DNA of 64,000 nt from an uncultured Bacillota bacterium (GTDB taxonomy: Bacteria; Bacillota_I; Bacilli_A; Culicoidibacterales; ZOR0006), in assembly GCA_945956935.1 (NCBI GenBank), contig CAMFJD010000007.1, forward strand, positions 1-64,000, given 5' to 3'. The notes beneath the pieces were generated by a model. It worked only from the letters and a program-made list of their open reading frames with translations. It had not been told where the DNA came from and made no database searches. Made by a program: the position numbers and the translations under genes. Within the stretch, counting starts at the first letter, position 1. Every line of letters begins with the position of its first letter. Positions 57,529 through 59,545 of this stretch are shown in pieces.

Positions 57529-57566
57529 TTTTGCGTATAATACAGTAAAGTGAAGGAGGTGTATGT

Positions 57567-58403
57567 ATGCAAAAAAATAAATGGTGTGTTGTTCAAGACG
57601 GTGAGCGGGGGATAGCAGCTGTTTTATTAGTTGCAGGTAAATGTTATTGTCAGCGATGCGGAAATAACGATCAAACTCGATTTTATCAATATTTTTGTGA
57701 GTCGTGCCAAGCTGATTGTTGGTATTGCCGTGATTGTGTTAGCTTTGGAATGATGACAACTTGTCAAGAAATTTATGTGAATCAGGAAAAATTTTCAATG
57801 CCAGCTGTGACGTATCAGTGGAGTGGAGTACTTTCTGAACAACAACAACACGCAAGTGAACGAGTACAACAATTATTTCAGCAACGAATAAATAGTATGG
57901 TGTATGCAGTGTGTGGTGCTGGGAAAACAGAAATGATGTTTGAGACAATTTATGATGCGTTACAACACAATTGTCGTGTCTGTTGGGCAACACCACGAGC
58001 TGATGTTGTTAAAGAACTAAAACCTCGTTTGCAACAAGCGTTTCAAGGGATTGAAATAGTTGCTCATTATCAGAATTCGCCAGATAGTCATAGAGATTCG
58101 CCACTTGTTGTTGCAACTACAAATCAACTGATTCGTTATTACGAAGCGTTTGATTGGATTATTATTGATGAAGTCGATGCTTTTCCATACACAATAGATG
58201 AAAAATTAAAGCGTTTTGTCCAACGTGCACTTAGCCCTAATGGAAGTATTACATATCTAACCGCTACTCCAAGTATTCGTTTACAAAAGGAATTTGATTC
58301 GCAAACACTTATTCAATTACCAGCACGGTATCATCGGCGACCATTACCGGTTCCAAGTATAAAATTACTAGGAACAAGTAAATCAATATTTTCTTTTCCA
58401 TGA
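57567..58403 (+). pseudogene. comFA: comFA, 5' part, ended by an in-frame TGA
   Basis: 278 codons then TGA at 58401-58403. ComFA is the DEAD-box-like ATPase that drives transforming DNA through the membrane. This part has the zinc cluster (CYCQRCG, CESC, CWYCRDC, about 27-57), Walker A VCGAGKT (115-121), DEVD (201-204) and TATPS (232-236), i.e. the whole RecA-like domain 1. The frame continues open after the stop into domain 2 with no indel. The simplest reading is a single nonsense change, for example of a TGG. GAAGGAGG precedes ATG. Confidence 0.85.
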
Positions 58404-58859
58404 AAATATCGATGGATTATAAAAAAAATTGCTTTTTTTTTGAAGCATAATCGTGTTGTAATGATTTTTGTGCCGACTATTGATGTCGGTAATTATGTGT
58501 ATAGTAAATTAGTTGGGAAATTAGGGAGTATGTGTGCATTTGTGTATAGTAGTGACGAAAAAAGACAAACGAAAGTACAAGGATTAAGAGATCGTACAAT
58601 CAAAGTACTGATTACAACAACAATATTGGAAAGAGGAGTGACCATTGACTTGTGTGAAGTGATTGTTATTGATGCAGATCACGATGTTTTTGATTGGTCA
58701 GCACTTGTACAAATTAGTGGGCGGGTTGATCGAAAAAGTGCCGATGCGTTAGCACAGATTTTTTTCATTGCACAGACAAGGACAAAAGCTATGAAAGTAG
58801 CAATTCAAGAAATTAAACAATGCAATGATTTAGCAAAAGAAAGAGGGTTACTCTATTGA
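58404..58859 (+). pseudogene. comFA: comFA, 3' part, same reading frame
   Basis: In the same frame as the 5' part, 152 sense codons hold RecA-like domain 2: VVMIFVPTIDVGNYVYSKL, ITTTILERGVTIDLCEVIVIDAD and the arginine-finger motif ALVQISGRVDRK. The first possible separate start is a TTG at 58440 after a T tract, without a ribosome binding site, so independent translation is unlikely. The protein sequence shows no sign of decay. With both parts the product would be about 430 residues, normal for ComFA. It overlaps comFC. Confidence 0.82.
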
Positions 58860-59545
58860 TGAGGTGTTTATTATGTAATAGTAAAATGAAACAACAACCG
58901 AGTTTTAGCAATCTTTTTCCTCAAAAACACAACGATTTTTGCGCATTTTGTTGGCAATTATTTGAACGAATTGACACACAAGGAGATGGGCGTTGTCAAA
59001 CATGTGTTGGGTTAGTCGATAGATATACGAAACAAAGAAGTTGCGAGCAATGTTGCTTTTGGAACGAAATGTATGATTACATCCCTAATCATCGAGCGTT
59101 ATTTTGTTATAACGAGACTGCTAAAGAGGTGTTACATCAAATAAAGTTTCTCGGTGATTGTGCGTTGATTGATCCATTTGTAATGAAAACAAATGAATAT
59201 TTACGTAATTATATGAATAAAGGAATAATTACTGCTATACCTTCCCATAGTGAACGCTTAAAAAAGCGTAAAATTGATGTTTTGAAGCATTTTTGTACGC
59301 AATTAGACTATCCTTTTGAATTTTTTTTGGTAAAATTACTACATACACCACACCAAAGCGAGCAAACAAAGCAAGCGCGTTTACAACTTGATTATCCATT
59401 TGAAATCCAAAACAATCCAAAGCATGATTTGATTGTAATCGATGATGTTTATACAACGGGTGCAACAATGTATCAAGCGGTAGCGGCTTTGCAACAAGCA
59501 CCAAATTATGACAAAGAAATTCAAACATTTTCTTTGTTTCGATAA
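58859..59545 (+). CDS. comFC: ComFC competence protein (phosphoribosyltransferase-like)
   Basis: 228 aa from ATG 58859, overlapping the comFA stop (TGATG). N-terminal zinc-finger Cys pairs (MRCLLC, DFCAFC, CQTC, CEQC) and a C-terminal PRTase motif LIVIDDVYTTGATMYQAVAAL (about 193-213). Needed for DNA uptake in natural competence and linked to ComFA. Its overlap with the interrupted comFA means that a stop upstream could lower its coupled translation. Confidence 0.92.
   Translation: MRCLLCNSKMKQQPSFSNLFPQKHNDFCAFCWQLFERIDTQGDGRCQTCVGLVDRYTKQRSCEQCCFWNEMYDYIPNHRALFCYNETAKEVLHQIKFLGDCALIDPFVMKTNEYLRNYMNKGIITAIPSHSERLKKRKIDVLKHFCTQLDYPFEFFLVKLLHTPHQSEQTKQARLQLDYPFEIQNNPKHDLIVIDDVYTTGATMYQAVAALQQAPNYDKEIQTFSLFR

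Follow-up and report, generated by a model that had tools for sequence, protein, structure and literature searches.

ComFA of Bacillota is a late competence ATPase/helicase encoded in the comF operon. In B. subtilis a Walker A mutation is described as inactivating the protein, yet the mutant still supports the stability of ComGA (PMC8262900), and in S. salivarius inactivation of comFA severely reduces competence (PMC13101493). The insertion of mobile elements into comFA is known (Croucher et al. 2016, PMC4774983). In-frame stop codons occur widely in bacterial genes, and most of them do not persist for long (Belinky et al. 2021, PMC7918605). Another described setting for a TGA within an open frame is the UGA-to-Trp reassignment of the Mycoplasmatales (code 4). 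Here we analyse a comFA gene with a single in-frame TGA in a stretch of 64,000 nucleotides from an uncultured Bacillota bacterium (the window). The only congener compared was Firmicutes bacterium ZOR0006 (JTLC01000001.1), which we take to be close to Culicoidibacter.

A comFA gene interrupted by one TGA

The comFA frame extends over positions 57567-58859 of the window (+ strand) and starts with an ATG preceded by GGAGG. Its one internal stop, TGA 58401-58403, is codon 279 and closes a first ORF of 278 codons (57567-58403); AAA follows directly, and 151 codons then remain open until the TGA at 58857-58859. The earlier note had described two comFA halves in one frame, parted by this TGA alone, followed by an A and with undamaged ATPase motifs on either side, and all of this holds. 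The 5' part includes a cysteine-rich N-terminus with CxxC pairs at residues 28-57 (zinc-finger region) and a DEAD/ResIII-type ATPase domain (Pfam PF00270 and PF04851) with Walker A and B. The 3' part (58404-58859), in frame beyond the TGA, matches Helicase_C (PF00271), and the motifs AVCGAGKTE (Walker A), DEVD, TATPS, ILERGVT and QISGRVDR were all found along the frame. Immediately 3' lies comFC (58856-59545, +; TIGR00201, E=3.8e-15, below the curated cut-off), whose start overlaps the end of comFA and which is unbroken, as had been claimed; the order of the two genes is identical in the sister genome. When read through the stop, ComFA aligns end to end with its intact ZOR0006 counterpart with 57% identity. 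The window copy thus shares with Bacillota ComFA the zinc-finger cysteines, Walker A, the DEVD box, Helicase_C and the neighbouring comFC, and differs from it by one TGA at codon 279. In a typical ComFA, Helicase_C and motifs V and VI are on one polypeptide with the ATPase domain, whereas here Helicase_C sits past the TGA.

The read-through protein was modeled from a 27-sequence alignment (mean pLDDT 87, pTM 0.83). In the model residue 279 opens a helix (278-293) that we take as the first of the second RecA-like domain, which would place the stop at the boundary between RecA-like domains 1 and 2. At the RNA level, positions 58395-58500 of the window, around the stop, fold better than shuffled sequences (z -2.74). 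Small hairpins lie over and after the TGA in this segment and have no known role.

Across the 64 kb window, comFA is the only in-frame interruption with coding scores on both sides and no start with a Shine-Dalgarno sequence after the stop. A blast of the sister-genome ORFs, judged by inspection, likewise returned comFA as the only long sense-strand gene with an interior stop, the remaining stops being in antisense frames or upstream of a start.

Two homopolymer runs, A8 (58421-58428) and T9 (58433-58441), follow the stop. The earlier note was right about the A8 run and about the absence of a frame shift, but the second run is T9 rather than T8 and the two lie 18-38 bases after the stop rather than 20-40. 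A homopolymer frameshift was ruled out, the frame being identical on either side of the stop. It is decidedly unlikely that the true codon is a sense codon and the TGA an error of sequencing or assembly: the genome is a draft in 52 contigs, but the change is a substitution within an intact frame, with no homopolymer indel, and the assembly is of good quality (99.77% complete, 0.04% contamination). As for a phase-variable switch, the sequence shows no sign of one at the comFA stop itself.

Codon 279 and comFA disruptions in other genomes

A Trp at this position in orthologues, which the earlier note had proposed to look for, was found in none of 26. The aligned column holds Arg in 13, Lys in 5 and Gln in 2, with six other residues occurring once each; every one of the 26 sequences has a residue there, Arg or Lys in 18. 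Orthologues that normally end at codon 279 as two separate genes, also suggested as a check, were sought and none was found. A comFA naturally split in relatives was ruled out, since the orthologues examined are continuous at codon 279 and the breaks found elsewhere fall at other places.

The stop might also separate two polypeptides, the second made by re-initiation, that assemble into a two-subunit ComFA. Such an arrangement would suit the predicted position of the stop at a domain boundary, and an ATG (58400-58402) overlaps the TGA, but this ATG is out of the ComFA frame and its own frame closes after 16 codons. In-frame starts between the stop and residue 361 all lack a Shine-Dalgarno sequence, on which ground separate translation of the second half was rejected. 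With none of the examined orthologues split at codon 279, we find a two-subunit ComFA scarcely credible.

Among 80 named comFA loci, 78 have no stop in the aligned gene. The two exceptions are both staphylococcal, S. lugdunensis NCTC 12217 (L120), with a TGA in the zinc-finger region, and S. caledonicus H8/1 (L165), with a TAA. Set against its intact orthologues, the window comFA is likewise an interrupted copy, as expected of a nonsense pseudogene. In two further genomes, G013 (L175, L176) and G052 (L177, L178), the Walker A region of comFA is split by inserts of ~24 and ~43 kb, and a gene that by eye resembles a large serine recombinase adjoins the N-terminal comFA piece in both; these inserts are probably prophages or other mobile elements. 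In G046 (L179) the break in comFA, also at the Walker A region, is a stop or frame change without a long insert, possibly the scar of such an element. An interrupted comFA is thus not very unusual, the gene being repeatedly broken in other genomes. The present case resembles the described natural disruptions (PMC4774983) in that comFA would be disabled while the remaining com genes persist, but differs in that the lesion is a point nonsense codon at a site free of any mobile element.

Decoding of TGA

The use of stop codons was surveyed in about 850 kb of stretches from the window's genome (a 1.84 Mb draft). In these, 334 open segments of at least 300 codons end with TAA (245), TAG (58) or TGA (31), TGA being the rarest terminator at ~9% of long reading frames. 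Genome-wide reading of TGA as Trp was ruled out, because TGA ends 31 of these 334 segments and Trp is absent from the orthologue column. A TGA within an open frame recalls the Mycoplasmatales, but here TGA terminates many genes and none of the 26 orthologues has Trp at codon 279. Neither the window's genome nor ZOR0006 gave an RF01852 (tRNA-Sec) match above the cut-off, and the sub-threshold matches examined were tRNA-Leu, tRNA-Ser and other ordinary tRNAs; selenocysteine at codon 279 was therefore rejected. No tRNA-Trp was found in either draft. Several further tRNAs are also missing from both, and the missing tRNAs probably sit in unassembled rRNA-linked clusters.

The sister gene also has an in-frame TGA, so that both genomes of the genus carry one in the comFA frame. 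In ZOR0006 an ATG with the best Shine-Dalgarno sequence is followed by five codons and then by the TGA (MKRQK*IHCSDEEGE), at codon 6, aligned to Trp6 of the window protein (L004:2773-2775, -). At about codon 18, a GTG has its own Shine-Dalgarno sequence, GAGGAAGGTGA. The ZOR0006 stop is probably harmless, because this downstream GTG can bypass it.

These observations bear on the reading in which the UGA at codon 279 is leaky: a near-cognate tRNA would decode it a few percent of the time, giving little full-length ComFA, so that uptake would be dampened rather than lost and the stop would act as a translational throttle. This would account for the coincidence of the two TGA codons in the genus; the conserved residues after the stop are retained, TGA is the rarest terminator, the RNA at the stop shows the favourable folding given above, and a read-through of UGA of ~6% in B. 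subtilis is reported at second hand, from work cited by PMC7918605. However, codon 279 is never Trp in orthologues, frames interrupted by TAG and TAA also occur in this genome, and the ZOR0006 TGA can be bypassed from the GTG. We consider leaky decoding unlikely. Its extension to the whole genus, with comFA kept under UGA control and leaky decoding setting a low ComFA level that throttles uptake without abolishing it, appears highly improbable. Between the recent nonsense mutation and the UGA read-through that the earlier note had offered as alternatives, the former fits best, while read-through as Trp found no positive support.

Other interrupted genes in the genome

Eight same-frame interruptions without a plausible start after the stop, comFA included, were found in the 850 kb, and all three stop codons are represented. 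A nitroreductase gene (L198:15516-16283, -) is split by an in-frame TAG that its family match spans. A TrbL-like conjugation gene (L206:8703-10904) has an in-frame TGA, after which 186 codons with Ser/Asn-rich repeats remain open, and another frame, not assigned to a family, carries both TAA and TGA. One of the eight (L222) consists of two adjacent genes, and others may likewise be adjacent gene pairs. The mix of TAG, TAA and TGA is the pattern expected of ordinary nonsense mutations. As in the short-lived stop polymorphisms described in bacteria (PMC7918605), comFA has a single stop in an otherwise conserved coding sequence; unlike those, the stop is known here from one genome.

Age of the stop

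Downstream of the stop, 24 columns are conserved in at least 85% of outgroups. The window sequence differs at 2 of them, and both differences are common to ZOR0006. With zero lineage-specific changes at these columns, the rule of three sets an upper limit of roughly 0.13 per site on the neutral amino-acid change accumulated after selection was lost; the path between the window and ZOR0006 is ~0.7. Since there is neither a second downstream stop nor a lineage-specific change at highly conserved positions, the nonsense event would be recent relative to the divergence of the species, or a polymorphism.

Branch lengths on a fixed tree speak against a purely recent event. For the downstream part they are 0.67 for the window against ~0 for ZOR0006, and for the upstream part 0.29 against 0.43; the two parts were fully separated in 60 bootstrap replicates, and the downstream/upstream rate ratio of 2.3 on the window lineage is the highest of 21 taxa. 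Site counts are weaker, with Fisher p from 0.04 to 0.68 depending on the threshold. In our reading of the rate data, variable sites have changed faster and the conserved ones have been retained. The fast downstream half could mean that the loss is older, or that a weakly expressed domain is tolerated.

The remaining uptake machinery

ComGA, ComGB, ComGC, ComGD, ComEA and ComEC are encoded by open, recognised genes in the window's genome, some of them scoring below the NCBI curated cut-offs, and dprA was also found. ComK was not detected in this genome. A motif, NGCG[CT]ATA[AT]TA, lies 35 nt 5' of comFA (TGCGTATAATA, window 57532-57542, +), 32 nt 5' of comGA (L049:1888) and 65 nt 5' of recA (L194:9252, -; recA was named by eye from its sequence). 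Of its 9 matches in the 850 kb, only these three stand before a start that has a Shine-Dalgarno sequence. A close variant occurs at comEA, and ZOR0006 has a related motif in front of comFA and comGA. The motif is a candidate competence promoter. Given the shared motif and the open com genes, comFA belongs to a competence regulon that seems to have been maintained, an unexpected state had the loss of uptake been ancient.

Two sigma-like genes were also noticed, one SigH-like, between rlmB and nusG (L232:1420-1974), and a second small one (L230:1285-1935). In addition, both genomes have a PilB-like ATPase locus apart from comG (L053, L054), with a PilT-like locus as well in the window's genome, which suggests type IV pili alongside the competence pilus.

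Expected consequences for DNA uptake

We propose, with a probability of about 80%, that comFA acquired a nonsense mutation fairly recently, that ComFA is thereby disabled or severely weakened, and that a near-complete uptake system is left in place. A nonsense mutation is the best fit because orthologues are single frames, no further stop occurs downstream and other genes of the genome carry interrupting TAG or TAA codons. In a comFA that is ordinary in all other respects, a single substitution would have turned codon 279 into TGA, and ribosomes would halt there. Because the stop appears to fall at the start of the domain 2 helix, the 278-residue product would consist of RecA-like domain 1 preceded by the zinc-finger region, and domain 2 with helicase motifs V and VI would be missing. 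Since B. subtilis requires the ATPase activity of ComFA, such a protein should not work as the DNA-uptake ATPase; the Walker A mutant and the S. salivarius data lead us to expect that ComFA without domain 2 is inactive for DNA transport. By analogy with the Walker A mutant, it might still stabilise ComGA. Translation that no longer reaches the end of comFA may also reduce ComFC, as its start overlaps the comFA stop.

Should the stop be read through, this locus would offer an uncomplicated natural example of DNA uptake controlled at translation. A nonsense mutation, which we favour, would be one more natural loss of competence at comFA, in a gut member of the Bacillota in which the rest of the uptake machinery is present.
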